A program made the translations under genes and the position numbers. From assembly GCF_002163675.1 (NCBI RefSeq), contig NZ_CP019334.1:3391501-3455500 (forward strand): 64,000 bases of DNA, given 5' to 3'. The notes below the pieces were generated by a model, which worked only from the letters and a program-made list of their open reading frames with translations, had not been told where the DNA came from and made no database searches. Below, in pieces: positions 1,287-50,415 of this stretch (positions are counted from its first letter, which is position 1; each line of letters begins with the position of its first letter). The DNA comes from Polaribacter sp. SA4-12 (lineage in GTDB: Bacteria > Bacteroidota > Bacteroidia > Flavobacteriales > Flavobacteriaceae).

Positions 1287-2543
1287 TTACAATTTAAAAG
1301 CTTCTTTTATTGTGTTTACATAATCTAATTTTTCCCAAGTAAAAGTTTCTACTTCTTCAGAAACAGTTTCTCCCATAGGGTTTGTAAATGTAACTGTTTT
1401 TATTTCTGGAGTTCTTCCCATGTGACCATAAGCAGCAGTTTCAGAATAAATAGGAGTTCTTAATTTTAAGCGTTTTTCAATAAAGTAAGGACGCATATCA
1501 AAAATAGATTCTACTATTTTACTAATTTCTCCATCAGATAAATCTACTTTAGAAGTATTGTACGTTTCAACATTAATACTTGTTGGTTTTGCAACACCAA
1601 TTGCATAAGAAACCTGAACTAAAACTTCTTTACAAAGTCCTGCAGCAACTAAATTCTTCGCAATATGTCTTGTTGCATATGCGCCAGATCTATCTACTTT
1701 AGAAGGATCTTTTCCAGAAAAAGCTCCTCCACCATGAGCACCTTTTCCACCATAAGTATCAACAATAATTTTTCTTCCTGTTAAACCTGTGTCTCCATGA
1801 GGTCCTCCAATTACAAAAACTCCTGTTGGATTAATATGATATGTAATGTCGTTTGTAAATAATTTTTGAATGTGAGCGGGTAATTTTGCTACAACTCTTG
1901 GAATCAAAATTTCTACAATGTCTTTTTTAATCTTCGCTAACATTACTTCGTCAGACTTGTCAAAATCATCATGCTGAGTAGAAATAACAATCGCATCAAT
2001 TCTTTGTGGCACATTATCATCAGAATATTCAATTGTAACTTGACTTTTTGCATCTGGTCTTAAGTAAGGAATATCAGTATTCTCTCTTCTTAAAGCTGCT
2101 AATTCAATTAACAATCTGTGAGATAATTCTAAAGCCAAAGGCATATAGTTCTCAGTTTCATCTGTTGCATAACCAAACATCATTCCTTGATCTCCTGCAC
2201 CTTGATCTTCTGGGTTTGCTCTATCAACTCCTTGATTAATATCTGGAGATTGTTCATGAATTGCTGATAAAACTCCACAAGAGTTTCCATCAAACATGTA
2301 TTCTCCTTTTGTGTAACCAATTTTGTTAATTACATCTCTAGCAATTTTTTGAACATCTAAATATGTTTTAGACTTTACTTCTCCGGCTAAAAATACTTGA
2401 CCAGTGGTAACTAAAGTTTCACAAGCAACTTTACTTGTTTTATCGAAAGCTAAAAAATTATCGATTAAAGCATCAGAAATTTGATCTGCAACTTTGTCTG
2501 GGTGTCCTTCAGAAACACTTTCTGAGGTAAATAAATATGACAT
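1287..2543 (-). CDS. metK: S-adenosylmethionine synthetase
   Basis: This enzyme makes S-adenosylmethionine from methionine and ATP in the cytoplasm. The 418-residue product carries [15 protein letters not shown] near residues 11-25 (methionine and metal site), the [15 protein letters not shown] motif and the glycine-rich [19 protein letters not shown] phosphate-binding loop. It is about 30 residues longer than the 384-residue E. coli enzyme, as I recall for other Bacteroidetes. It is transcribed away from the metY series, so the end product of the locus is made from its own transcript. The leader contains a SAM-II-like aptamer, which points to feedback control by its product. Confidence 0.97.
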
Positions 2544-2684
2544 ATAAATCTTCTTTTATAATATTAAAAATGATTCCTTTATGAAATACATAAAGGTTTC
2601 CTTAAAATTTGTCTTTCCTGTGTAAACAGGAATCGAGAAAAATGAAAAGAGATTGCATTGGTCGCTAAAAGTAGTAGATAATTA
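2544..2684 (-). promoter_or_regulatory. metK leader: expression-platform segments below the SAM-II-like aptamer
   Basis: This is the part of the metK leader downstream of the aptamer. The RNA contains TTTAGC (plus-strand 2664-2669), complementary to the aptamer's GCTAAA (plus 2689-2694), and TGCAATC (plus 2651-2657), complementary to the aptamer core GATTGCA (plus 2731-2737). Either pairing would break the aptamer. Nearer the start codon, CCTTTATG / CATAAAGG and GATTCC / GGAATC can also pair. There is no obvious T-tract terminator. Alternative folding is an inference from complementarity. Confidence 0.5.
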
Positions 2685-2757
2685 CTGCTTTAGCATTTTT
2701 TGTTTCGGCTGATAAATCAGCGTCAGAGGTTGCAATCAGTTCAAATTTTTCCTCTAA
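2685..2757 (-). promoter_or_regulatory. SAM-II-like (SAM_alpha) riboswitch aptamer of metK
   Basis: On the minus strand the leader shows the SAM-II signature in order. Stem AGAGG (2755-2751) pairs with CCTCT (2729-2725). The loop contains AAATTTGAACTGATTGCAA. An A-rich strand AAACAAAAAATGCTAAAGC would form the pseudoknot. A perfect extra hairpin, GCTGAT-TT-ATCAGC, sits between stem 1 and the A-rich strand, where known SAM-II RNAs have a short link. SAM-II is known mainly from Alphaproteobacteria. The call rests on remembered consensus; a covariance-model search would settle it. Confidence 0.72.
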
Positions 2758-2766
2758 AATTCTGTG

Positions 2767-2774
2767 CAAAGTTA
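2767..2774 (-). promoter_or_regulatory. metK: -7 promoter element of metK
   Basis: TAACTTTG on the minus strand matches the Bacteroidetes -7 consensus TAnnTTTG. Transcription would start about 7 bp downstream, just before the SAM-II-like aptamer. No clear -33 TTG is visible. Confidence 0.6.
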
Positions 2775-2929
2775 CACTATAAATCTAAATATCATAACTT
2801 TTCGTAATAATATTTAATTATGGTATCATCAATAAAACAATGTTGACTGTTTGTAAATTAAGTGATAATTATAAAAGATATGCTTTTAATGTGATATTAC
2901 TATTTCTTAAAAAATAATTTTACTTTTGT

Positions 2930-2961
2930 TTGGATATTAAGTTTTTATGAACATATATTTG
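2930..2961 (+). promoter_or_regulatory. metY: promoter of the metY transcript
   Basis: TTG at 2930-2932 and TATATTTG at 2954-2961 are 21 bp apart, matching the flavobacterial -33/-7 pattern. The SAM-I riboswitch begins about 30 bp downstream. Confidence 0.7.
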
Positions 2962-2991
2962 CACTCACAAAGTTCAATAACTTATTGAAAT

Positions 2992-3112
2992 GTTATCAAG
3001 AAAGGTGGAGGGATTAGACCCGTTGAAGCCTTAGCAACCCTTTTCGTGAGGAAAAGAAGGTGCTAAATTCTACTTAATTTCAGATTCATTTATCAGAAAT
3101 TGGATAGATAAC
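2992..3112 (+). promoter_or_regulatory. SAM-I (S-box) riboswitch upstream of metY
   Basis: The canonical S-box core is present: ATCAAGAAAGG, then GGAGGGATTAGACCC, TTGAAGCCTTAGCAACC, and after a hairpin AAGGTGCTAAATTC. P1 is GTTATC (2992-2997) with GATAAC (3107-3112). P3 is CTTTTC / GAAAAG. P4 is the AATTTC / GAAATT hairpin just before the P1 3' strand. SAM-I switches turn methionine-pathway genes off when SAM is abundant. This one controls metY and probably the fused metX gene. Confidence 0.96.
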
Positions 3113-3305
3113 CCAAAAGCAATTACACATCCGTGTACTTGTATAATTCTTAATAACATTTTTCTAGTAAGTACATCAATAAACTTGATGCATTCGACTT
3201 TTGGTTTAATCGCAAATTGATTCACAATATGCAATATTGTGTTTCTTTTGAAAATGTCATTCATGTGAAAACAGGAATCTAAATTAACTCAAAAAAAATA
3301 GAAAA
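3113..3305 (+). promoter_or_regulatory. structured leader between SAM-I aptamer and metY, with terminator
   Basis: The 190-nt leader after the aptamer holds several perfect hairpins: CCAAAAG / CTTTTGG (long range), GTACTT / AAGTAC and CATCAA / TTGATG. It ends with CACAATAT-GCA-ATATTGTG (3223-3241) followed by TTTCTTTT, a plausible intrinsic terminator 57 bp before the metY start. A 64-codon frame on the opposite strand overlaps this stretch and is taken as chance. Confidence 0.6.
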
Positions 3306-4580
3306 ATGAGTACATTAAAATTAGCAACAAACGCATTACATGCAGGGCATGATGTAACAAAAAATGGAGGAACAAGAGCAGTTCCTATTTACCAAACATC
3401 ATCGTATGTTTTTAACAATTCAGAACATGCAGCAAATCTTTTTTCATTAAAAGAATTAGGTTTTATTTACACACGTTTAAACAACCCAACAAACCAAATT
3501 TTACAAGATCGTTTAGCATCTGTAGAAGGCGGAATTGGAGCTGTAGTTTTTGCTTCTGGTACAGCAGCAATTTCAACAGGTTTATTAACGTTATTAAAAG
3601 CAGGAGATCATATTGTAGCTTCTAGTAGTTTATATGGTGGTACTTACAATTTGTTAAGTGTTACTTTACCAAGATTCGGAATTACAACTACGTTTGTAGA
3701 TGCTTCAAATCCTGATAATTTTGCAGCTGCAGTTCAAGACAATACAAGAGCATTTTTTGTAGAATCTTTAGGAAATCCTAAATTAGATGTTTTAGATTTA
3801 GAAGCAATTTCTGTACATTCTAAAGCGGCAGAAGTTCCTTTTATTGTTGATAATACGGTTGCAACACCCGTTTTATTGAATCCTATAAAACATGGAGCGG
3901 ATATTGTAATTCATTCATTAACAAAATATATTGGTGGACAAGGAACTTCTTTAGGAGGCGCAATTGTTGATGCTGGTACTTTTAATTGGGCAAATGGAAA
4001 ATTCCCTGAATTTACAGAGCCTTCTGCAGGTTACCATGGTTTAAAATATCATGATGCCTTAGGTGCAGCAGCATTTACTTTTAAATTGATTTTAGAAGGA
4101 TTACGTGATTTTGGTGGCGCTTTAAGTCCAACAAATGCATTTAATATTATTCAAGGATTAGAGACTTTACCAGTTAGAATTAAACAACATTCAGAAAATG
4201 CTTTGGCATTAGCAACTTGGTTAGAAGCGCAAGAAGAAGTAACTTGGGTAAATTATCCTGGTTTAGAAAGTAGTAAATACAATGCATTAGCAAAAAAATA
4301 TTTACCTAAAGGACAAAGTGGAATTGTAACTTTTGGAGCAAAAGGTGGTTTTGAAGCTGCAAAAACAATTGCAGATAAAACAAAAGTATTTTCTTTATTA
4401 GCAAATATTGGAGATACAAAATCATTGATTATTCACCCAGCAAGTACAACGCACCAACAATTAGATGAAGCACAACAAGCAAGTGCGGGTGTGAGCCAAG
4501 ATTTAATTCGTTTATCTGTTGGTATTGAAGATTTAGAAGATTTAAAAGCAGATTTAAAAGCGGCTTTTTCAGAAATATAA
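3306..4580 (+). CDS. metY: O-acetylhomoserine sulfhydrylase (aminocarboxypropyltransferase)
   Basis: This PLP enzyme combines O-acetylhomoserine with sulfide to give homocysteine and acetate. The 424-residue product belongs to the Cys/Met metabolism PLP family. The lysine that binds PLP is K207 in HSLTKYIGGQGTSLGG. YTRLNNPTNQILQDRLA near 55-71 and the C-terminal HPASTTHQQL and LIRLSVGIEDLEDL stretches are typical of the acetylhomoserine-using branch. It has its own SAM-I leader and is followed by the fusion gene that makes its substrate. MetZ, 3.7 kb downstream, is a second enzyme of the same superfamily, so direct sulfhydrylation may be duplicated here. Confidence 0.94.
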   Translation: MSTLKLATNALHAGHDVTKNGGTRAVPIYQTSSYVFNNSEHAANLFSLKELGFIYTRLNNPTNQILQDRLASVEGGIGAVVFASGTAAISTGLLTLLKAGDHIVASSSLYGGTYNLLSVTLPRFGITTTFVDASNPDNFAAAVQDNTRAFFVESLGNPKLDVLDLEAISVHSKAAEVPFIVDNTVATPVLLNPIKHGADIVIHSLTKYIGGQGTSLGGAIVDAGTFNWANGKFPEFTEPSAGYHGLKYHDALGAAAFTFKLILEGLRDFGGALSPTNAFNIIQGLETLPVRIKQHSENALALATWLEAQEEVTWVNYPGLESSKYNALAKKYLPKGQSGIVTFGAKGGFEAAKTIADKTKVFSLLANIGDTKSLIIHPASTTHQQLDEAQQASAGVSQDLIRLSVGIEDLEDLKADLKAAFSEI

Positions 4581-4669: not shown

Positions 4670-7600
4670 TTGAAAGATTTATTACAACATATTAAGATAA
4701 ATGATTTTACGACAGAAGCTGGTGCTTTAATTTCTGAAATGAATTTGAGTTATCATGTTTTTGGAAAAAAATTAGGTACAGCTCCTGTGGTATTAATCAA
4801 TCATGCTCTAACTGGTCACAGTAATGTTGCTGGTAAAGAAGGTTGGTGGCAAGATATTGTTGGTGATAAAAAAGCAATAAATACGGAAGTTTACACCATT
4901 TTATCTTTTAATATTCCAGGTAATGGTTTTGATGGTTTTCTAATTGATAATTATAAAGATTTTATTGCAAGAGACGTTGCAAGAATTTTTTTAGAAGGAT
5001 TATCAACATTAAATATTGATAAATTATTTGCATTAATTGGAGGTTCTTTAGGTGGAGGAATTGCTTGGGAAATGGTTGTTTTAAATAATAAATTGACAAA
5101 GCATTTTTTACCAATTGCAACCGATTGGAAATCTACAGATTGGTTAATTGCTAATTGTCAAATTCAAGAACAGTTTTTGGTAAATTCTAGTAATCCAGTG
5201 CATGATGCACGTATGCATGCCATGTTGTGTTACAGAACTCCAGAATCTTTTAAAGAACGTTTTCATCGATCTAAAAAAGACGATTCAGATATTTTTGACG
5301 TAGAAAGTTGGTTGTTGCATCATGGTAAATCTTTGCAAGAACGGTATCAATTATCTTCTTATAAATTAATGAATCAATTGTTAAAAACGATTGATGTTAC
5401 TATAGGTGGAAAAAAAGATATTGAAAACTTAGATAAGATTGATGCTAATATTCACATTATTGGTGTTGATTCTGATTTGTTTTTTACTGCGGAAGAAAAT
5501 AGAGAAACGCATAAAAAGTTAGCGTTAACAAAAGATAACGTTACTTATAATGAGATAAATTCGGTTCATGGACATGATGCTTTTTTGATGGAATATGATC
5601 AATTGCAGAAAATTATTGAACCTATTTTTAATAAAGATTACAGAGAAAAGAAGATGAAAGTTTTAAAATTTGGAGGAAAATCTTTGGCCAATGGTAAAGG
5701 ATTGGAAAATGCAATAGAAATTATTGCAAGTAAATATAAAGACGGAATAGAAATTACGGTTGTTGCCTCTGCAAGAGGGAATTCTACAAACGAACTAGAA
5801 GCAATTTTAGAAAAGGCAGCATCAAAAAAAGAATATAAATCAGAATTTGAAAAATTTAAAGAATATCAACTAGAACCTAATAATTCAGTTGATTTCTCTA
5901 AAGAATTTTCAAAACTAGAAACTATTTTTGAAGGTGTTTCTTTATTAGGAGATTATAGTCAGAAGATTAAAGATAAAGTTTTAGCTCAAGGCGAATTACT
6001 ATCTGTAAAGTTAATAGCTAGTTTACTAGAAAAGCAACATATTTCTGCAAATTCTGTAGATTCAAGATCTTTAATTATTACTGATGAAAATTTTGGAAAT
6101 GCACAACCTATTACTGCAGTTTCTAAAGAAAATGTAATTAGTTATTTTAAGAAAAATAAGAATACTATACATATTGTTTCTGGTTTTATTGCATCAAACA
6201 AAAAAGGAGAAACAACTACTTTAGGTAGAAATGGTAGTAATTATACAGCAGCTTTATTGGCGAATTATTTAGATGCTGATGAGTTGCAAAATTATACACA
6301 TGTAAGTGGCATTTTTACTGCAAACCCAGATTTAGTTGCAGATGCAAAAAAAATTGAACAATTATCATTTTCAGAAGCGAATGAATTGGCAAATTTTGGA
6401 GCAACTATTTTACACGCAAAAACAATTATTCCTTTATTAGAAAAGAATATAAATCTTCGAATTTTAAACACGTTTAATAAAGAAGATAGAGGAACTTTAA
6501 TAACCGCAGAATCATCAACAAAAGGAATTAAATCTATTTCTACGATTGATAATGTTGCTTTACTGAATTTTGAAGGTAGAGGTTTGTTAGGCAAAGTTGG
6601 TGTTGATGCTCGTATTTTTAAAACCTTAAGTGATCGAAATATTAGTATAAGTATTATTGCTCAGGGTTCTTCAGAAAGAGGAATTGGGTTAATTATTGAT
6701 GCAGATAAAGCACAAGAAGCAGTAGCTGCTCTTGAAAAAGAGTTTGAAAATGATTTTTATTCACAAGATGTTAATCAGATCTCAATTGTAAATAATGTTG
6801 CAGTAATTTCTATCATTGGTCAAGATTTAAGTGAGTTTCATCATCCTTATAATGCATTGATTAAAAACCAAATTGTACCTGTTTTATTCAATAATACGGT
6901 TACTGGAAAAAACGTGAGTTTGGTGGTCAAGAAAGACCAATTACACAAAGCTGTGAATGTAATTCACGGTCAGGTTTTTGGTGTTACTAAAAAAATTAAT
7001 ATTGCCATTTTTGGAAAAGGTTTAGTTGGCGGAACGTTAATTGATCAGATTATTGAAAACACACAATCTGTTTTAGAGAGAAGAAAGCTTCAATTAAATG
7101 TTTTTGCAGTTGCAAATTCTAAAAAAGTATTACTAAATAAAAACGGAGTTTCTAAAGACTGGAAAGAAAATCTTTTAGAAAATGGAGATTCAACTACTAC
7201 TGTTAATGATATAATATCATTTGCAAAAGAACATCATTTTGAAAATTTAATTGTGGTAGATAATACTGCAAGTGTCAAATTTGTCAGTAATTATATTCCT
7301 TTTATAGAAGCTGGTTTCGATTTGGTTTCTTGTAATAAAATTGCAAATACGTTATCTTTTGATTTTTACAAAGAAGTAAGATCAAAATTAAAAGAATACA
7401 AAAAGCAATATCTGTATGAAACGAATGTTGGTGCAGGTTTACCTTTAATTGATACCATTCGTTTATTACATGAATCTGGAGAAAATATCACTAAAATTAG
7501 AGGTGTTTTTTCAGGGAGTTTAAGTTACCTTTTTAATACATTTTCTGCTGAGAATGTTCCTTTTTCTAAAACATTACAAGAAGCAATTGATAAAGGTTTT

Positions 7601-8071
7601 ACAGAACCAGATCCGAGAGAGGATTTAGGTGGAAATGATGTTGCTAGAAAATTACTAATTTTAGCAAGAGAATTAGATTTAGAAAATGAATTATCAGAAG
7701 TTGAGATTAAAAATCTAATTCCGGAAAACCTAAGAAATGGTTCTGCGGATGAATTTCTAGGTAGATTAGAATTGTTAAATGATGAATATCAAACTTTAAA
7801 AGACAATCAAAAGCCAAATCACGTTTTACGTTATATTGGCGAATTAAGTGGAGATTTATCACAAAATAAAGGGAAGTTAGAAGTAAAATTAGTTTCCACA
7901 CCAGAAAGTACGCCATTAGGATCTTTAAAAGGTTCTGATGCAATATTTGAAATTTATACAGAATCTTATGGAGAACAACCAATTGTAATTCAAGGAGCAG
8001 GAGCAGGAGCAAGTGTAACCGCAAGAGGAGTTTTTGGAGATATTTTAAGATTAGCAAAACATAACAATTAA
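4670..8071 (+). CDS. metX-thrA: trifunctional fusion: MetX-like homoserine O-acetyltransferase + aspartokinase + homoserine dehydrogenase
   Basis: A single frame of 1133 codons starts at a TTG at 4670. Residues 1-328 are an alpha/beta-hydrolase MetX-like domain with nucleophile S126 in GGSLGGG, an acid in GVDSDLFF and histidine in HGHDAFL. A new start-like segment, MKVLKFGGKSLANG, begins at residue 329 and opens an aspartokinase domain (TLGRNGSNYTAALL; FTANPDL) with ACT regulatory domains. From about residue 774, homoserine dehydrogenase follows (IAIFGKGLVGG; NVGAGLPLIDTIR; GFTEPDPREDLGGNDVARK). The protein covers aspartate phosphorylation, semialdehyde reduction to homoserine and homoserine acetylation. 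Internal translation from the ATG at 5654 could also release a normal ThrA-like enzyme. The MetX domain is shorter than free-standing MetX. Confidence 0.92.
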   Translation: MKDLLQHIKINDFTTEAGALISEMNLSYHVFGKKLGTAPVVLINHALTGHSNVAGKEGWWQDIVGDKKAINTEVYTILSFNIPGNGFDGFLIDNYKDFIARDVARIFLEGLSTLNIDKLFALIGGSLGGGIAWEMVVLNNKLTKHFLPIATDWKSTDWLIANCQIQEQFLVNSSNPVHDARMHAMLCYRTPESFKERFHRSKKDDSDIFDVESWLLHHGKSLQERYQLSSYKLMNQLLKTIDVTIGGKKDIENLDKIDANIHIIGVDSDLFFTAEENRETHKKLALTKDNVTYNEINSVHGHDAFLMEYDQLQKIIEPIFNKDYREKKMKVLKFGGKSLANGKGLENAIEIIASKYKDGIEITVVASARGNSTNELEAILEKAASKKEYKSEFEKFKEYQLEPNNSVDFSKEFSKLETIFEGVSLLGDYSQKIKDKVLAQGELLSVKLIASLLEKQHISANSVDSRSLIITDENFGNAQPITAVSKENVISYFKKNKNTIHIVSGFIASNKKGETTTLGRNGSNYTAALLANYLDADELQNYTHVSGIFTANPDLVADAKKIEQLSFSEANELANFGATILHAKTIIPLLEKNINLRILNTFNKEDRGTLITAESSTKGIKSISTIDNVALLNFEGRGLLGKVGVDARIFKTLSDRNISISIIAQGSSERGIGLIIDADKAQEAVAALEKEFENDFYSQDVNQISIVNNVAVISIIGQDLSEFHHPYNALIKNQIVPVLFNNTVTGKNVSLVVKKDQLHKAVNVIHGQVFGVTKKINIAIFGKGLVGGTLIDQIIENTQSVLERRKLQLNVFAVANSKKVLLNKNGVSKDWKENLLENGDSTTTVNDIISFAKEHHFENLIVVDNTASVKFVSNYIPFIEAGFDLVSCNKIANTLSFDFYKEVRSKLKEYKKQYLYETNVGAGLPLIDTIRLLHESGENITKIRGVFSGSLSYLFNTFSAENVPFSKTLQEAIDKGFTEPDPREDLGGNDVARKLLILARELDLENELSEVEIKNLIPENLRNGSADEFLGRLELLNDEYQTLKDNQKPNHVLRYIGELSGDLSQNKGKLEVKLVSTPESTPLGSLKGSDAIFEIYTESYGEQPIVIQGAGAGASVTARGVFGDILRLAKHNN

Positions 8072-11967: not shown

Positions 11968-12045
11968 TTTGGGCGTTTTAACGGGCTTTCCACTATATCT
12001 TTTTTTGAAAAAACAAAAAAAGGATGTCGTTTCAATCCCTAACGC
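11968..12045 (+). repeat. structured intergenic element, copy 1 of 3 (short form)
   Basis: The element runs from TTTGGGCGTTTTAACGGGC through CTTTCCACTATATC to GGATGTCGTTTCAATCCC and TAACGC. The ends GCGTT / AACGC pair, and ATCTTTTTTT...AAAAAAAGGAT forms an inner stem. Related copies are at 24630-24714 (opposite orientation, longer) and 50290-50363. It sits between cysD and cysN, so it is transcribed within the operon. Confidence 0.8.
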
Positions 12046-12150
12046 AACTATTTGCAAACACCTTACAGAATTTAAACGCTTTTGTAAGTATTAAAAAAGA
12101 ATACAAATTAAGCTAAAAGCCAAAGGCCAATAGCGAACAGCTGATAAAAA

Positions 12151-20175: not shown

Positions 20176-20249
20176 ATTTTACAAATACACTCTACAAATA
20201 AAAAAATAATCCTTTTCTTTGTAGTTCAGTTCATAAACTTATTGATACC

Positions 20250-20374
20250 GTTATCACGAAAGGTAGAGGGATTAGACCCGCTGAAGCCTTAGCAACCCAT
20301 TTCGTTAAGAAATAAAGGTGCTACATTCTACAGATTATCTTGAACAAGTTTCATTAATTAATCTGACAGATAAC
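20250..20374 (+). promoter_or_regulatory. SAM-I (S-box) riboswitch upstream of split metH
   Basis: The core matches the metY switch almost base for base: TTATCACGAAAGGTAGAGGG, ATTAGACCC, CTGAAGCCTTAGCAACCC, AAAGGTGCTACATTCTAC. P1 is GTTATC (20250-20255) / GATAAC (20369-20374). P4 is CAGATT / AATCTG. Only 49 bp separate it from the ATG. A small hairpin TTGATA-AAAA-TATCAA (20405-20420) ends three bases before the start, and its GATAA could compete for the P1 5' strand, so control may act on translation. That last point is inference. Confidence 0.95.
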
Positions 20375-20423
20375 AGCGAAAATTTCACTTTTCCTGATGA
20401 CATATTGATAAAAATATCAAAAA

Positions 20424-21425
20424 ATGTCAAACATATATAAAGCTTTACAAGAACGAATTTTGGTTTTAGATGGTGCCATGGGTACTATGCTACAAGCCTA
20501 TAAATTTACGGAAGAAGATTTTAGAGGAGAACGCTTTAAAGATTATCCAACTCCATTACAAGGGAATAATGACTTGTTATCAATTACGCAACCAGAAGCA
20601 ATTAAAACGATTCATGGTAAGTATTTTGAAGCAGGTGCAGATATTATAGAAACCAATACTTTTTCTGGAACTACAATTGCAATGGCAGATTACCAAATGG
20701 AAGATTTGGTATATGAACTAAACTATCAATCTGCAAAAATTGCAAAAGAAGTTGCCGTTGAATTTACGGAGAGAGAACCTCATAAACCTCGTTTTGTAGC
20801 AGGTTCAATAGGTCCAACAAATAGAACTGCAAGTATGTCTCCAGATGTAAATGATCCTGGTTATAGAGCAGTTACTTTCGATGAATTAAGAATTGCTTAC
20901 AAACAGCAAACAGAAGCTTTAGTTGATGGTGGAGTTGATTTACTTTTAGTAGAAACGGTGTTTGATACTTTAAACGCAAAAGCAGCTTTATTTGCTATTG
21001 AAGAAGTAAAAGACGAAAGAAATATTGATATTCCTATAATGCTGAGTGGTACAATTACTGATGCTTCCGGAAGAACATTATCTGGACAAACAGCAGAAGC
21101 ATTTTTAATTTCTGTTTCACACATACCTTTATTAACTGTTGGTTTTAATTGTGCTTTAGGAGCCAATTTATTACAACCGCATTTAGAAGCAATTGCAAGT
21201 AAAACTGACTTCGGAATTTCTGCACATCCAAACGCAGGATTACCAAATGCTTTTGGAGAATATGATGAAACTCCAGAAGAAATGGGAGAGCAAATTGAAG
21301 AGTATATGAAAAAGGACTTAATCAATATTATTGGAGGTTGTTGTGGTACAAGTCCTGCACACATTAGAGAAATAGCAAATGTTGCAGCAAAATATAAACC
21401 AAGACAGCATTCAGAAAAACATTAA
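20424..21425 (+). CDS. metH: methionine synthase, homocysteine-binding half
   Basis: This 333-residue protein is the N-terminal homocysteine module of cobalamin-dependent methionine synthase. The zinc thiolates are C243 (GFNCALGAN) and C306-C307 (GGCCGTSPAHI). LDGAMGTMLQ at 15-24 and ETNTF at 76-80 are family motifs. The methyl-carrier modules are encoded separately 290 bp downstream. This split arrangement is known in Bacteroidetes. It is the first gene behind the SAM-I switch. Confidence 0.95.
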   Translation: MSNIYKALQERILVLDGAMGTMLQAYKFTEEDFRGERFKDYPTPLQGNNDLLSITQPEAIKTIHGKYFEAGADIIETNTFSGTTIAMADYQMEDLVYELNYQSAKIAKEVAVEFTEREPHKPRFVAGSIGPTNRTASMSPDVNDPGYRAVTFDELRIAYKQQTEALVDGGVDLLLVETVFDTLNAKAALFAIEEVKDERNIDIPIMLSGTITDASGRTLSGQTAEAFLISVSHIPLLTVGFNCALGANLLQPHLEAIASKTDFGISAHPNAGLPNAFGEYDETPEEMGEQIEEYMKKDLINIIGGCCGTSPAHIREIANVAAKYKPRQHSEKH

Positions 21426-21433
21426 GCTTAGAG

Positions 21434-21715
21434 ATGATATTAGAAGTAGCCTTATTAAATGTAAAGAGAGGTCTTTCTGAGGATTTTGAAAATAATTTCA
21501 AAAAAGCAGAACGTATTATTTCTTCTATGAATGGATATATTTCTCATCAATTAAAGAAATGTTTAGAACAAGAAGATAAGTATATTTTATTAGTCAATTG
21601 GGAAACAATTGAAGATCACGAAATCGGATTTAGAAAATCTGATGAATACCAACAATGGAAAGAATTGTTACATCATTTTTATGAACCTTTTCCAACTGTA
21701 GAACATTATAAATAA
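21434..21715 (+). CDS. ABM-fold small protein (antibiotic biosynthesis monooxygenase family)
   Basis: This 93-residue protein has the dimeric alpha+beta barrel pattern of the ABM family: [13 protein letters not shown], a helix, [25 protein letters not shown] and a C-terminal helix with [13 protein letters not shown]. Family members include heme-degrading and quinone monooxygenases and many proteins of unknown role. It sits between the two metH halves, 8 bp after the first and overlapping the second by one base, so it is co-expressed with methionine synthase. Whether it helps cobalamin or oxidation protection is unknown. Confidence 0.8.
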
Positions 21716-24390
21716 TGAAGATAAAGCAAACAAAATATATGAAATTGTCTGGTTTAGAACCTTTGGTTTTAAACGAGAATAGCAATTTTATTAATGTAGG
21801 AGAAAGAACGAATGTTGCAGGATCTAAAAAATTCTTACGTTTAATAAAAGAAGAAAAATTTGATGAAGCTTTAGATGTTGCTAGACATCAAGTAGATGGT
21901 GGAGCGCAAATTATCGATATTAATTTTGATGATGGTTTAATTGATGGAAAAGAATCAATGGTTCGTTTCTTGAATTTAATTGCTGCAGAACCAGATATTT
22001 GTAGAGTTCCAATTATGATTGATAGCTCTAAATGGGAAATCATTGAAGCTGGATTAAAGGTTGTACAAGGTAAGTGTGTTGTAAATTCAATTTCTTTAAA
22101 AGAAGGAGAAGAAAAATTTATTTGGGAAGCAAAACAAATAAAGCGATATGGTGCCGCTGTAATTGTAATGGCTTTTGATGAAACTGGTCAAGCAGATAAT
22201 TACGAAAGAAGATTAGAAATAGCCAAACGTTCTTACGATGTTTTGGTAAATAAAGTTGGCTTTGCATCCGAAGATATTATTTTTGATTTAAATATATTCC
22301 CAGTTGCAACAGGAATGGATGAGCATAGAAGAAATGCCATCGATTTTATTGAAGCAACACGTTGGGTAAGACAAAATTTAGAAAATGTTTCTGTAAGTGG
22401 AGGTGTAAGTAACGTATCATTTTCTTTTAGAGGAAATAACGGAGTTCGTGAAGCAATGCACACTGTGTTTTTATATCATGCAATTCAAGCAGGTATGAAT
22501 ATAGGAATTGTAAATCCTGCAATGTTAGAAATTTACGATGATATTCCTAAAGATTTATTAGAACATGTAGAAGATGTTATTTTAGATAGAAGAGAAGATG
22601 CAACTGAACGTTTATTAGATTTTGCTGAAACAGTAAAAGGATCTAAAGTTGGTAAAACAGCAGATTTATCATGGAGAGAAAATCCTTTACAAGATAGAAT
22701 TACACACGCTTTAGTAAAGGGAATTGATGCCTTTATTATTGAAGATATAGAACAAGCGAGACAAGAAGCAGCTGCACCAATTGAAGTTATTGAAGGCAAT
22801 TTAATGACGGGTATGAATGTGGTTGGAGATTTATTTGGAGCAGGAAAAATGTTTTTACCTCAGGTTGTAAAATCTGCTCGTGTAATGAAAAAAGCTGTAG
22901 GATATTTAAATCCGTTTATTGAAGCAGAAAAAGGAGATAAACAAGAACCTGTTGGTAAAATATTAATGGCGACTGTTAAAGGTGATGTTCATGATATTGG
23001 TAAAAATATTGTAAGTGTAGTATTGGCTTGTAATAATTATGAAATTGTAGATTTAGGTGTCATGGTTCCGCCAGAAAAAATCATTGAAGCAGCAATTAGA
23101 GAACGTGTAGATGCTATTGGATTATCAGGGTTAATTACACCTTCTCTTGATGAAATGGTATACTTAGCAAAAGAAATGCAACGTCAAAATTTTGAAGTTC
23201 CATTATTGATTGGAGGAGCAACGACTTCTAAAGCGCATACTGCTGTTAAGATTGATACGCAATATAATAAAGCGGTTGTTCATGTAAATGATGCATCTAG
23301 AGCAGTAACTGTCGTTGGTGACTTATTAAATAAGAAAACATCACATGAGTATGTTGCTAAAATGAAAAAAGATTATGATGAATTTAGAACTAAGTTTTTA
23401 AAACGAGGTAAAGAAAAATCATACGTTTCATTAAATGAAGCACGTAAAAGAAAATATAAAATTGATTGGCAAACATCAGAAATTGTAAAGCCAAAAGAAT
23501 TAGGGATTCAGACTTTAGAACAATTAAGTTTAAAAGAATTAGTTCCGTTTATAGATTGGAGTCCGTTTTTTAGAAGTTGGGATTTACATGGTAAATTTCC
23601 AGCTATTTTAAAAGATAAGGTTGTTGGTGAACAAGCAACAATCATGTATGATGAAGCACAAGCAATGATTAAAGAAATTATTGCCAAACAATTGTTGAAA
23701 CCAAAAGCAATTTTTGGTTTGTTTGAAGCAAATACTGTAAATGACGATGATATTTCGATTCAGAAGAAAGGAAAAGAGATTGCTATTTTTAGAACTTTAC
23801 GTCAGCAATTAAAAAAGAGAGAAGGAATACCAAATATTGCATTGTCAGATTTTATTGCTCCAAAAGAAAGTAATAAAACAGATTATATGGGTGCTTTTTG
23901 TGTAGGTATTTTTGGCGCACAAGAATTAGCAGATTCTTATAGAGATAAAGAAGACGATTATAATGCAATTATGGCGCAAGCAATTGCAGACCGTTTTGCA
24001 GAAGCAATGGCCGAATATTTACATAAGCAAATTAGAATTAAACATTGGGGTTATGGTGTTGATGAAGAGTTAACTAATGATGATTTAATTAAAGAAACTT
24101 ATAAAGGAATTCGTCCTGCACCAGGATATCCTGCGTGTCCAGATCATTTAGAAAAAGAAACAATTTGGGAATTGTTAGATGTTGAAAAACAAATAGGAGT
24201 TAAGTTAACAGAAAGTATGGCAATGTGGCCAGCAGCTGCAGTATCTGGATATTATTTTGGAAACAAAGAAGCTAAATATTTTGGTTTAGGTAAAATTACA
24301 GATGATCAAGTTACAGATTATTCAACAAGAAAAGGAATTACAAAACAAAAAGCGAGAAAGTGGTTACACCCAACGCTTGCTGAAGAATAA
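21715..24390 (+). CDS. metH: methionine synthase, folate/cobalamin/activation half
   Basis: This 891-residue protein carries the pterin-binding domain ([14 protein letters not shown] at 27-40), a helical cap, the B12-binding domain with D424-V-H426-D-I-G429, and the SAM-dependent reactivation domain ([15 protein letters not shown] near 800). H426 is the lower cobalt ligand. It works with the separate homocysteine module to methylate homocysteine from methyltetrahydrofolate. The start overlaps the stop of the ABM gene. A second ATG nine codons in (MKLSGLEPL) is an alternative. Confidence 0.96.
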
Positions 24391-24393
24391 GAT

Positions 24394-24630
24394 ATGAAAT
24401 TTATAGAATTACATTTAGGAAGTTATATTATTTCTCATGGTTATGATAAAAATAACAACGAGATAATAGTTCACATTCCTGCAGATAATTTTGCGAAGAA
24501 ACTAATTGCAGTTTCACGAATTAAATCTTTAAGTGAAAAATATGTTCTAACCGATTATGTAGATGGAAGATGGATCTATTGGGAATATAAAGAAGATTTT
24601 GAAGAAGTGAAAAAGTTACTAAACAAGTAG
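24394..24630 (+). CDS. hypothetical protein, 78 residues
   Basis: I do not recognise this protein. It starts three bases after metH and is likely co-transcribed. It has alternating beta and charged segments (FIELHLGSYIISHGYD; NEIIVHIPADNFAKKLIAVSRI; DGRWIYWEYKEDFEEVKKLLNK), no signal peptide and no membrane segment. The pattern looks like a small soluble alpha+beta domain. Its stop codon runs straight into the dispersed element. Confidence 0.65.
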   Translation: MKFIELHLGSYIISHGYDKNNNEIIVHIPADNFAKKLIAVSRIKSLSEKYVLTDYVDGRWIYWEYKEDFEEVKKLLNK

Positions 24631-24714
24631 CGTTAGCGATTGAAACGGCATCCTTTTTGCCTTTTCAGCAAAAAGATATAGTGAAAAGCGCGACCCTTTT
24701 GGGGAACGTCCAAA
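24630..24714 (-). repeat. structured intergenic element, copy 2 of 3 (long form, reversed)
   Basis: On the minus strand it reads GGACGTTCCCC, AAAAGGGTCGCGC, TTTTCACTATATCTTTTT, a loop, then AAAAAGGATGCCGTTTCAATC and GCTAACGC. It contains a segment (CCCCAAAAGGGTCGC) missing from the other two copies. The boundary is exact against the preceding gene, whose TAG stop overlaps the element's first base. Confidence 0.8.
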
Positions 24715-30295: not shown

Positions 30296-30358
30296 TTTTT
30301 TTATTTTATGTTTGCATATGTAAAAATACATTGTATATTTGCAACCGCTTAAAGCAAC

Positions 30359-30432
30359 GGTCTGGTAGTTCAGTTGGTTAGAATACCTGCCTGTCACGCA
30401 GGGGGTCGCGGGTTCGAGTCCCGTCCAGACCG
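30359..30432 (+). tRNA. tRNA-Asp (GUC), copy 1
   Basis: This 74-nt cloverleaf has acceptor GGTCTGG / CCAGACC, anticodon stem CCTGC / GCAGG with loop CTGTCAC (anticodon GTC), T arm GCGGGTTCGAGTCCCGT and discriminator G. CCA is not encoded. A TATATTTG promoter box lies 18 bp upstream. Confidence 0.97.
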
Positions 30433-30435
30433 CGA

Positions 30436-30464
30436 AAATCACTTCATTTATGAAGTGATTTTTT
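30436..30464 (+). terminator. terminator of tRNA-Asp copy 1
   Basis: AATCACTTCA-TTTA-TGAAGTGATT followed by TTTTT. Confidence 0.93.
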
Positions 30465-30625
30465 CGTTATAAGACTTTTGTTTAAGTAGTGTTTAATAAA
30501 AATTGTGGATTAACATCAAGATTTTCTGGTGTTTAGGTTTGGCGTTAAAAGTTTTACAATCTAAATAGAAAAAAATCTATGTTTGTATTAAAATCTATGT
30601 TATATTTGCAACCGCTTAAAGCAAC

Positions 30626-30699
30626 GGTCTGGTAGTTCAGTTGGTTAGAATACCTGCCTGTCACGCAGGGGGTCGCGGGTTCGAGTCCCGTCCAGACCG
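30626..30699 (+). tRNA. tRNA-Asp (GUC), copy 2
   Basis: Identical in sequence to the tRNA at 30359-30432, with the same upstream TATATTTG and downstream hairpin. Confidence 0.97.
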
Positions 30700-30702
30700 C
30701 GA

Positions 30703-30731
30703 AAATCACTTCATTTATGAAGTGATTTTTT
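30703..30731 (+). terminator. terminator of tRNA-Asp copy 2
   Basis: Same AATCACTTCA / TGAAGTGATT hairpin and T-tract as copy 1. Confidence 0.93.
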
Positions 30732-30933
30732 CGTTATAAGACTTTTGCTTTATCTTATATAAGAATATTGGATTTAGTCTAGAAGTTATTTTGCTTTAAC
30801 ACTTGTTTTACTGTGGTTAAGGGATATTTGCTAAAAGTAAAATTCTATACTCCGTTTATCTATAAGATGATTCCATTTATCGGGAAATTATATCCACCAA
30901 TCGAAAACTAAAATTTTAAGTCCAATTCCAATC

Positions 30934-32391: not shown

Positions 32392-32426
32392 AAAAAAAAC
32401 CGTAACAAATTAATGTTACGGTTTTT
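32392..32426 (-). terminator. terminator of the tRNA-Gly/tRNA-Leu unit, copy A
   Basis: AACCGTAACA / TGTTACGGTT hairpin with T-tract on the minus strand. Confidence 0.9.
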
Positions 32427-32427
32427 G

Positions 32428-32513
32428 TACTGAAGGCGGGACTTGAACCCGCACGGCCATTACTGACCACTGGATTTTAAGTCCAGCGTGTCTACCAATT
32501 CCACCACTTCAGC
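32428..32513 (-). tRNA. tRNA-Leu (UAA), copy A
   Basis: On the minus strand it has acceptor GCTGAAG / CTTCAGT, anticodon stem CTGGA / TCCAG with loop CTTAAAA (anticodon TAA), a long variable arm typical of tRNA-Leu, T loop GTTCAAG and discriminator A; 86 nt. Confidence 0.96.
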
Positions 32514-32533
32514 ATGGTATTTTTATTGAATAG

Positions 32534-32605
32534 AGCGAAAGACGAGATTTGAACTCGCGACCCCCACCTTGGCAAGGTGATGCTCTACCCCTGAGCTACT
32601 TTCGC
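32534..32605 (-). tRNA. tRNA-Gly (GCC), copy A
   Basis: On the minus strand it has acceptor GCGAAAG / CTTTCGC, anticodon stem CACCT / AGGTG around TGCCA (anticodon GCC), T loop GTTCAAA; 72 nt. It precedes tRNA-Leu by 20 bp in the same transcript. Confidence 0.96.
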
Positions 32606-32661
32606 AGTCGTTATTTTCTAATTTGAACTTTGTAATAACTCACTTATTTATTAAGTGGCTG

Positions 32662-32669
32662 CAAATATA
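32662..32669 (-). promoter_or_regulatory. -7 promoter element of tRNA cassette A
   Basis: TATATTTG on the minus strand, about 57 bp before tRNA-Gly. Confidence 0.7.
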
Positions 32670-32791
32670 GTAAGTTAAAAGCATTCCTAATAGTAATATC
32701 TATAAATTTTTTAAAAGGATAGTTTAATTTATAATTCAAGCTTATTGTTTGGTAGCGGATTTCAATTTGTTGTACTTGTCTTTTTATACAT

Positions 32792-32825
32792 AAAAAAAAC
32801 CGTAACAAATAAATGTTACGGTTTT
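32792..32825 (-). terminator. terminator of the tRNA-Gly/tRNA-Leu unit, copy B
   Basis: Same AACCGTAACA / TGTTACGGTT hairpin as copy A, differing by one loop base. Confidence 0.9.
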
Positions 32826-32827
32826 CG

Positions 32828-32913
32828 TACTGAAGGCGGGACTTGAACCCGCACGGCCATTACTGACCACTGGATTTTAAGTCCAGCGTGTCTACCAATT
32901 CCACCACTTCAGC
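32828..32913 (-). tRNA. tRNA-Leu (UAA), copy B
   Basis: Sequence identical to copy A; anticodon TAA. Confidence 0.96.
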
Positions 32914-32933
32914 ATGGTATTTTTGTTGAATAG

Positions 32934-33005
32934 AGCGAAAGACGAGATTTGAACTCGCGACCCCCACCTTGGCAAGGTGATGCTCTACCCCTGAGCTACT
33001 TTCGC
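32934..33005 (-). tRNA. tRNA-Gly (GCC), copy B
   Basis: Sequence identical to copy A; anticodon GCC. Confidence 0.96.
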
Positions 33006-33062
33006 AGTCGTTATTTTCTAATTTGAACTTTGTAATAATCCCCTTATTTCCTAAGTGGGGTG

Positions 33063-50289: not shown

Positions 50290-50363
50290 TTGGGCGTTTT
50301 AACAGGCTTTCCATTATATCTTTTTGTGAAAAACAAAAAGGATGCCATTTCAATCCTTAACGC
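50290..50363 (+). repeat. structured intergenic element, copy 3 of 3 (short form)
   Basis: TGGGCGTTTTAACAGGCTTT, CCATTATATCTTTTT, then CAAAAAGGATGCCATTTC, AATCCTTAACGC. It is nearly the same as copy 1 (11968-12045). It directly follows the clpX stop. Confidence 0.8.
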
Positions 50364-50415
50364 AAATTGCGAACTAAAGGAAGAAGTTCATAAAAACAAC
50401 TTTTAGAATTTATAC

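Follow-up and report, generated by a model that had tools for sequence, protein, structure and literature searches.

Two SAM riboswitch classes face each other between metK and metY in Polaribacter, with a covarying anti-aptamer strand in the long-loop SAM-II leader

The intergenic region between metK and metY of Polaribacter sp. SA4-12 harbors two unrelated SAM aptamer folds that face each other, one before metK on the minus strand and one before metY on the plus strand; Rfam matches bear out what an earlier note had read from this DNA. Downstream of the metK aptamer lies a complementary strand, and the outer part of this strand covaries with the 5' half of the aptamer across genera. We propose that the region encodes two separate SAM-sensing leaders, in each of which the aptamer would be set against a downstream complementary strand, and that SAM probably lowers expression of the gene behind.

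The window, that is, the whole 64-kb stretch under analysis, was scanned with Rfam at gathering thresholds, and positions 2544-3305 were scanned up to E=10. metK (1287..2543, minus) encodes an S-adenosylmethionine synthetase of 418 aa with the three S-AdoMet_synt domains (PF00438, PF02772, and PF02773), and its leader carries an aptamer of the long-loop SAM-II family RF01726 (2680..2760, minus; 57.7 bits, cut-off 44). The match covers model positions 1-60, with no P1 pair flagged as nonstandard. The description of this aptamer as SAM-II-like thus stands, but the family that had been named for it, RF00521, does not appear among the five Rfam matches that 2544-3305 gives up to E=10, and it is the sister family that scores well over its cut-off. 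An extra hairpin, GCTGAT-TT-ATCAGC (2708..2721, minus), lies in the long loop by sequence position, and five of its pairs form in the predicted fold. On the other side, RF00162 was found as expected, with a SAM-I aptamer at 2990..3114 (plus; 70.6 bits, cut-off 44.4) that covers model positions 1-108, the full length. It precedes a PF01053 gene (3306..4580, plus; 441 bits), which we take to be metY, a PLP enzyme of the O-acetylhomoserine sulfhydrylase type. The Rfam ends put 229 nt between the two aptamers, close to the 235 bp estimated before. Matches to FtrB, snoR77, and snR76 in the same region were far under cut-off and were discarded.

metY is followed by a metX-like hydrolase fused to aspartokinase/homoserine dehydrogenase (4670..8071, plus; PF00561, PF00696, and PF00742). 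The SAM-I aptamer that had been reported before metH was recovered as well (20248..20376, plus; 72.6 bits), 5' of a split metH (20424..24390, plus) made of a homocysteine S-methyltransferase part (20424-21425; PF02574) and a B12-dependent part (21715-24390; PF02965, PF00809, PF02607, and PF02310). Whole-genome searches gave one SAM-II and two SAM-I aptamers, and the targets, metK, metY, metX, and metH, belong to one pathway. The same window holds three Flavo-1 RNAs (RF01705) at 11975-12053 (minus), 24625-24699 (plus), and 50296-50379 (minus). Together with an S15-Flavobacteria RNA match, they fit a member of the Flavobacteriaceae.

The metK aptamer fits, at full length, the same model as the "SAM-II long loops" motif, which was listed in 2010 for "Bacteroidetes, marine" as RNA, cis-regulatory, switch (PMC2864571). 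In the passages of that paper drawn on here, neither an expression platform nor SAM-I co-location nor class exchange appears, and we note these for the present locus and its relatives. The same passages list the SAM-Chlorobi motif for Chlorobi (PMC2864571); we observed SAM-Chlorobi RNAs (RF01724) in two genomes from a different family within the phylum (L202, 2746-2833, minus, 70.5 bits; L204, 2757-2844, minus, 80.3 bits), about 110 to 120 nt 5' of the metK match. The matches before metY and metH are full-length SAM-I (S box) aptamers, and unlike the usual S box, the one before metY has the other SAM class as its partner across the spacer.

The fold of the SAM-II aptamer is conserved in relatives. 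In 132 aptamers (2 of 134 were skipped), the four P1 pairs are standard in 132, 132, 129, and 126 cases and the four pseudoknot pairs in 113, 131, 132, and 131. Two P1 pairs carry double substitutions (A-U to G-C and G-C to A-U), both of them in the same 5 aptamers out of 132, and the pseudoknot, which is nearly invariant, shows one. Covariation of P1 and pseudoknot is therefore modest, but the lack of any covariation in related metK leaders, which had been named as evidence against a SAM-II fold, is in substance not what was seen.

A box of the type TAnnTTTG, presumably the Bacteroidetes -7 box, stands 5' of each aptamer: TAACTTTG (2767..2774, minus) lies 6 nt from the SAM-II aptamer, and TATATTTG (2954..2961, plus) lies 28 nt from SAM-I. 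Comparison of 49 divergent spacers (37 from the genus and 12 from the family) placed such a box 4 to 10 nt 5' of SAM-II in all 49, against 2.6 expected from base shuffles, and 28 nt 5' of SAM-I in 20. Scanning 2544-3305 for sigma-70 promoters returned 9 sites, with 5.2 expected. With boxes in these places, transcripts would begin at the outer edges of the aptamers and would not overlap, so that the two leaders would be transcribed back to back, each from its own promoter. Past the metY box, directly 5' of the SAM-I P1, lies a palindrome, TTCAATAACTTATTGAA (2973..2989, plus), and a similar one is seen in the relatives whose divergent spacers were compared.

Lying on opposite strands with a promoter-like box 5' of each, the two aptamers do not form a tandem pair on one mRNA. 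Such tandem arrangements are known, SAM-II being found with SAM-V or with SAM-I/IV (PMC9481103). The present locus resembles them in bringing two SAM classes together, but the pairs in the passages of that paper drawn on stand in tandem before one gene, whereas here there are two diverging leaders or, in relatives, two genes on the same strand.

In the metK leader, the anti-aptamer strand (2636..2671, minus) comprises CTTTTAGC at 2664-2671, GCAATC at 2651-2656, and a U-rich tail. It can pair with GCTAAAG (2688-2694), GATTGC (2732-2737), and the P1 5' strand of the aptamer. The predicted fold of the window's own leader has a free energy of -26.6 kcal/mol (z -3.5), and 1 of 200 shuffles was as good. 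GCAATC opposite GATTGC recurs in 43 of 49 leaders of the genus, along with CTTTTAGC opposite GCTAAAG, and in many genera the complementary strand reads GTCAAATC versus GATTTGAC (a loose pattern picks it up in 48 of the 86 family leaders).

Covariation between this strand and the aptamer was measured by swapping strands between species. The leader set held 139 sequences with a metK start. The aptamer end could be parsed in 136 of them, removal of duplicates left 135, and the loop was obtained for 134; 48 genus and 86 family leaders entered the test, with 10,000 permutations, which leave relatedness in. Leaders of the genus paired better with their own strand than with swapped ones (-10.37 versus -9.83 kcal/mol; 1 of 10,000 permutations, and 0 of 10,000 in another run), and those of the family did so as well (-11.85 versus -10.52 kcal/mol; 0 of 10,000). 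Four controls that share the same relatedness (strand reversed, complemented, or reverse-complemented; loop reversed) showed no own-partner gain. It is the outer helix that carries the signal: it reached a shuffle P of ≤0.05 in 32/48 genus and 55/86 family leaders, while the window's own leader stood at P=0.09. The inner helix (GCTAAAG with CTTTTAGC) did so only in 2/45 and 10/54 leaders and was mostly no better than shuffles. In the predicted SAM-free fold, 46 of 48 genus leaders (23.3 expected) and 83 of 86 family leaders (54.7 expected) pair with 7 or more bases of the aptamer. When SAM is absent, the downstream strand would thus open the aptamer, in metK mainly at loop 1 and the P1 5' strand.

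The metY leader carries a comparable element. An anti-P1 strand, TCTTAATAACATTTT (3148..3162, plus), was recognized by duplex scoring as complementary to the 5' strand of the SAM-I P1, and it pairs with AAATGTTATC-AAGA of P1 through 13 pairs with one mismatch in 20 of 30 metY leaders (of 36 found, 6 were dropped). The best anti-P1 duplex had a shuffle P of ≤0.05 in 26 of the 30. In the window, an alternative site at 3183-3195 is slightly better (-9.6, against -9.2 for the common site in relatives). This strand is conserved and shows no covariation, as swapped partners pair equally well among the 30 leaders. In the absence of SAM, it would pair with the P1 5' strand and open SAM-I; in its presence, in either leader, the aptamer would fold, the strand would be released, and expression of the gene behind would most likely drop.

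The comparisons also bear on how the bound state would lower metK expression. Occlusion of the start codon by the switching strand was considered as a general OFF mechanism and rejected on the swap, accessibility, and duplex tests. The swap test of start-region occlusion was unsupportive (8,650 of 10,000 permutations in the genus and 573 of 10,000 in the family), the accessibility model had the start region less open when bound in just 27/48 genus and 49/86 family leaders, and strand-to-start duplexes reached a P of ≤0.05 in only 2/43 and 6/60 leaders. Pairing of the start region was above its own shuffle mean in 37/49 genus and 32/86 family leaders, and paired start-region bases exceeded shuffled ones in 20/48 and 49/86. 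With RNAalifold, neither of the two larger leader sets yielded a consensus structure for the OFF state. Nine small-genome relatives share a consensus hairpin, GUUGCUUU...AAAGCAA, whose end adjoins the start codon.

These results bear on the opposite logic, in which an intact SAM-II aptamer would act as an ON switch, SAM breaking the long SAM-free hairpin and raising metK expression. That hairpin is indeed the best-supported alternative fold, and the search in the genus yielded no OFF structure tied to the bound state. Nevertheless, we consider an ON switch very unlikely: on general reasoning, a SAM synthetase induced by its own product would amount to positive feedback, the hairpin next to the start codon in the nine small-genome relatives fits OFF logic, and in the window's model, binding makes the start region slightly less accessible (0.49 versus 0.54 when free).

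An OFF switch could also work by transcription attenuation, with the SAM-bound state leading to a terminator upstream of metK. Most SAM-II leaders of proteobacteria are predicted to work in this way; in the passages of PMC2258182 drawn on, the platforms of alpha- and betaproteobacterial SAM-II are classed mostly as terminators. A hairpin resembling a terminator (2596-2576, minus; 8 pairs, with AATCATTTTT as its tail) is indeed present in the window's metK leader, and the region has two terminator-like sites versus 0.2 expected. However, this hairpin is part of a REP-like two-hairpin repeat (2572..2634, plus, antisense to the leader), whose hairpin at 2576-2596 looks like a terminator whichever strand is read. 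Of the 50 genus leaders, just the 12 longest, with at least 107 nt from SAM-II to ATG, have room for such an insert, so most relatives would regulate, if at all, without it. By eye, other leaders lack a GC-rich hairpin followed by a U run, and the U-rich stretch of this genus lies in a helix of the SAM-free fold. The pairing of that stretch, which lies beside the aptamer, also led us to reject it as a terminator of the SAM-free state. Attenuation as the general output is therefore unlikely, and we favor OFF control at the level of translation or mRNA stability; this output is presumed here for most relatives, just as SAM binding and the OFF logic are presumed. Because of the terminator-like hairpin in the REP insert, attenuation stays a serious alternative for this species.

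A second copy of the REP-like repeat was found by BLAST in the metY leader (3219..3279, plus). The repeat is about 62 nt long with the core CATTCCTGTGAAAACAGGAATC and has 10 BLAST matches in the genome at E≤0.01, counting itself and the metK-leader copy; one genomic copy (L087) also lies close before an ATG. Since both leader copies share one DNA strand, the metK and metY mRNAs carry complementary stretches. We rejected this near-repeat as a special cross-talk element, as it is a dispersed REP-like repeat that is absent by eye from most relatives' leaders. Elsewhere in the window, tRNA genes lie inside direct duplications (30308-30750 and 32392-33058; a 267-nt unit 97% alike and a 176-nt unit 93% alike).

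A related case is Sinorhizobium meliloti metA and metZ, methionine genes under SAM-II control whose leaders likewise have competing folds (PMC9373788). According to the passages of that paper drawn on, metA uses a Shine-Dalgarno sequence and metZ a predicted terminator; most of the leaders compared here show no evident sign of either. The locus also departs from a 2007 survey which, in the passages drawn on, had no species with both SAM-I and SAM-II (PMC2258182). A SAM-I/SAM-II pairing is not described in the passages drawn on of PMC2704228, PMC6061858, PMC3101246, PMC6429828, PMC12121620, and PMC9870897, and in the freely readable article texts searched we found no description of the two classes co-located.

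Bacteria of the host group make little use of Shine-Dalgarno sequences, and in their genomes the two aptamer classes are regular companions. In a sample of 58 genomes of the genus, SAM-II was found in 51 and SAM-I in 54, and all 51 SAM-II carriers had SAM-I as well as metK directly behind SAM-II. True loss of SAM-II in the other seven was discarded: six had no metK match, and in one metK begins at contig base 1. The family sample (159 genomes) had SAM-II in 149 and SAM-I in 127, with both in 122, SAM-II only in 27, SAM-I only in 5, and neither in 5. Five of the ten genomes without SAM-II have metK with no RF01726 match at E≤0.1 in the 1,500 nt upstream of each, and since that upstream sequence is present, SAM-II looks truly absent there. 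In a phylum sample of completeness at least 90, SAM-II occurred in 45 of 296 genomes (41 over cut-off) and SAM-I in 248, and 42 of the 45 SAM-II carriers also had SAM-I (exceptions G364, G436, and G444). Searches of more than 40 genomes used stricter filters that drop weak matches, so these SAM-I and SAM-II counts are lower bounds. Carrying both classes is therefore ordinary in Flavobacteriaceae, and the earlier remark that their presence in one Bacteroidetes genome is unusual does not hold. The head-to-head arrangement is rarer than mere co-carriage: it was seen in 37 of 51 genus carriers, with 152 to 247 nt between the aptamers, and in 15 of 89 family loci (gaps of 125 to 309 nt in 12 loci and 674 to 687 nt in 3) scanned for an opposite-strand SAM-I within flanks of 900 or 1,500 nt, which miss wider gaps. 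The interest thus moves to the division of labor between the two classes, to their exchange at metY, and to the covariation-supported anti-aptamer strand.

The gene neighborhoods fall into three recurring layouts: divergent; collinear, SAM-II-metK-SAM-I-metY; and fused, SAM-II-metK-metY without SAM-I. Of the 90 family loci read, 89 had metK directly behind SAM-II (30 loci were given, and 60 more were picked in descending order of score with omissions, so that the weakest matches are underrepresented). In 20 stretches chosen from listed coordinates, the gene behind SAM-I in the divergent ones was metY (L248, L250, L251, and L252, with metY farther away in L254), metH (L246), or metX (L247 and L249). 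None of the query genes was found in L253, upstream of a G061 SAM-II. Among 11 same-strand picks, 10 had metK, a gap with SAM-I, and then metY 276 to 411 nt past metK; the exception, L236, had metX and no metY.

For the fused layout, metY was searched in 12 of the 27 SAM-II-only family genomes, mostly small and picked before the result. In three, the metY matches were only distant ones (best E values around 1e-39 to 1e-41). Eight of the other nine had SAM-II-metK-metY-metX, where the metK match either abuts that of metY or is separated from it by no more than 29 nt. In the ninth, G061, SAM-II directly precedes metY, and no metK match lies beside it. A second SAM-II was found before DUF6580-metH in G061, before QueF-DUF6580-metH in G138, and before QueF-DUF6580 and a PF01053 gene in G109, the QueF and DUF6580 domains being scanned in one genome each. 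Thus, in small-genome relatives (L207, L208, and L209), a second SAM-II lies 5' of QueF, a DUF6580 membrane protein, or both, with metH or a PF01053 gene next in line; as a guess, DUF6580 could be a transporter connected with the supply of methionine or B12.

It could be argued that metK and metY are merely neighbors, each keeping its own class, with no functional link between the two classes. In agreement with this, 14 of the 51 genus carriers are not head to head in their assemblies (several pairs lie on different contigs), and the divergent pair was seen within the flank in only the 15 of 89 family loci given above. On the other hand, metK and metY-metX stay together in several layouts, the aptamer spacings fall into narrow groups, and metY stands behind SAM-II in the fused layout, without SAM-I, in eight of the nine metY-bearing SAM-I-less genomes examined, the ninth having SAM-II directly before metY. 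We hold chance adjacency to be rather doubtful, although the arrangement of the loci gives it some weight.

Because metY is found behind SAM-I or, in the fused layout, behind SAM-II, the same genes come under either SAM class. In Polaribacter sp. SA4-12, metK would be under the long-loop SAM-II, metY(-metX) under SAM-I, and metH under the second SAM-I. Only tentatively, and short of counting it as probable, we suggest a two-threshold system in which SAM-II may tune metK and SAM-I may tune precursor supply (metY-metX and metH). Where metY is fused to the metK unit, SAM-I would have gone and SAM-II would have taken over metY, and in some genomes metH, as a class exchange; the SAM-II leader strand would act by invading the aptamer, with no evident Shine-Dalgarno sequence. 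The fused layouts thus offer a case of one gene under either riboswitch class, and the anti-aptamer strand is a testable candidate for the expression platform of long-loop SAM-II.
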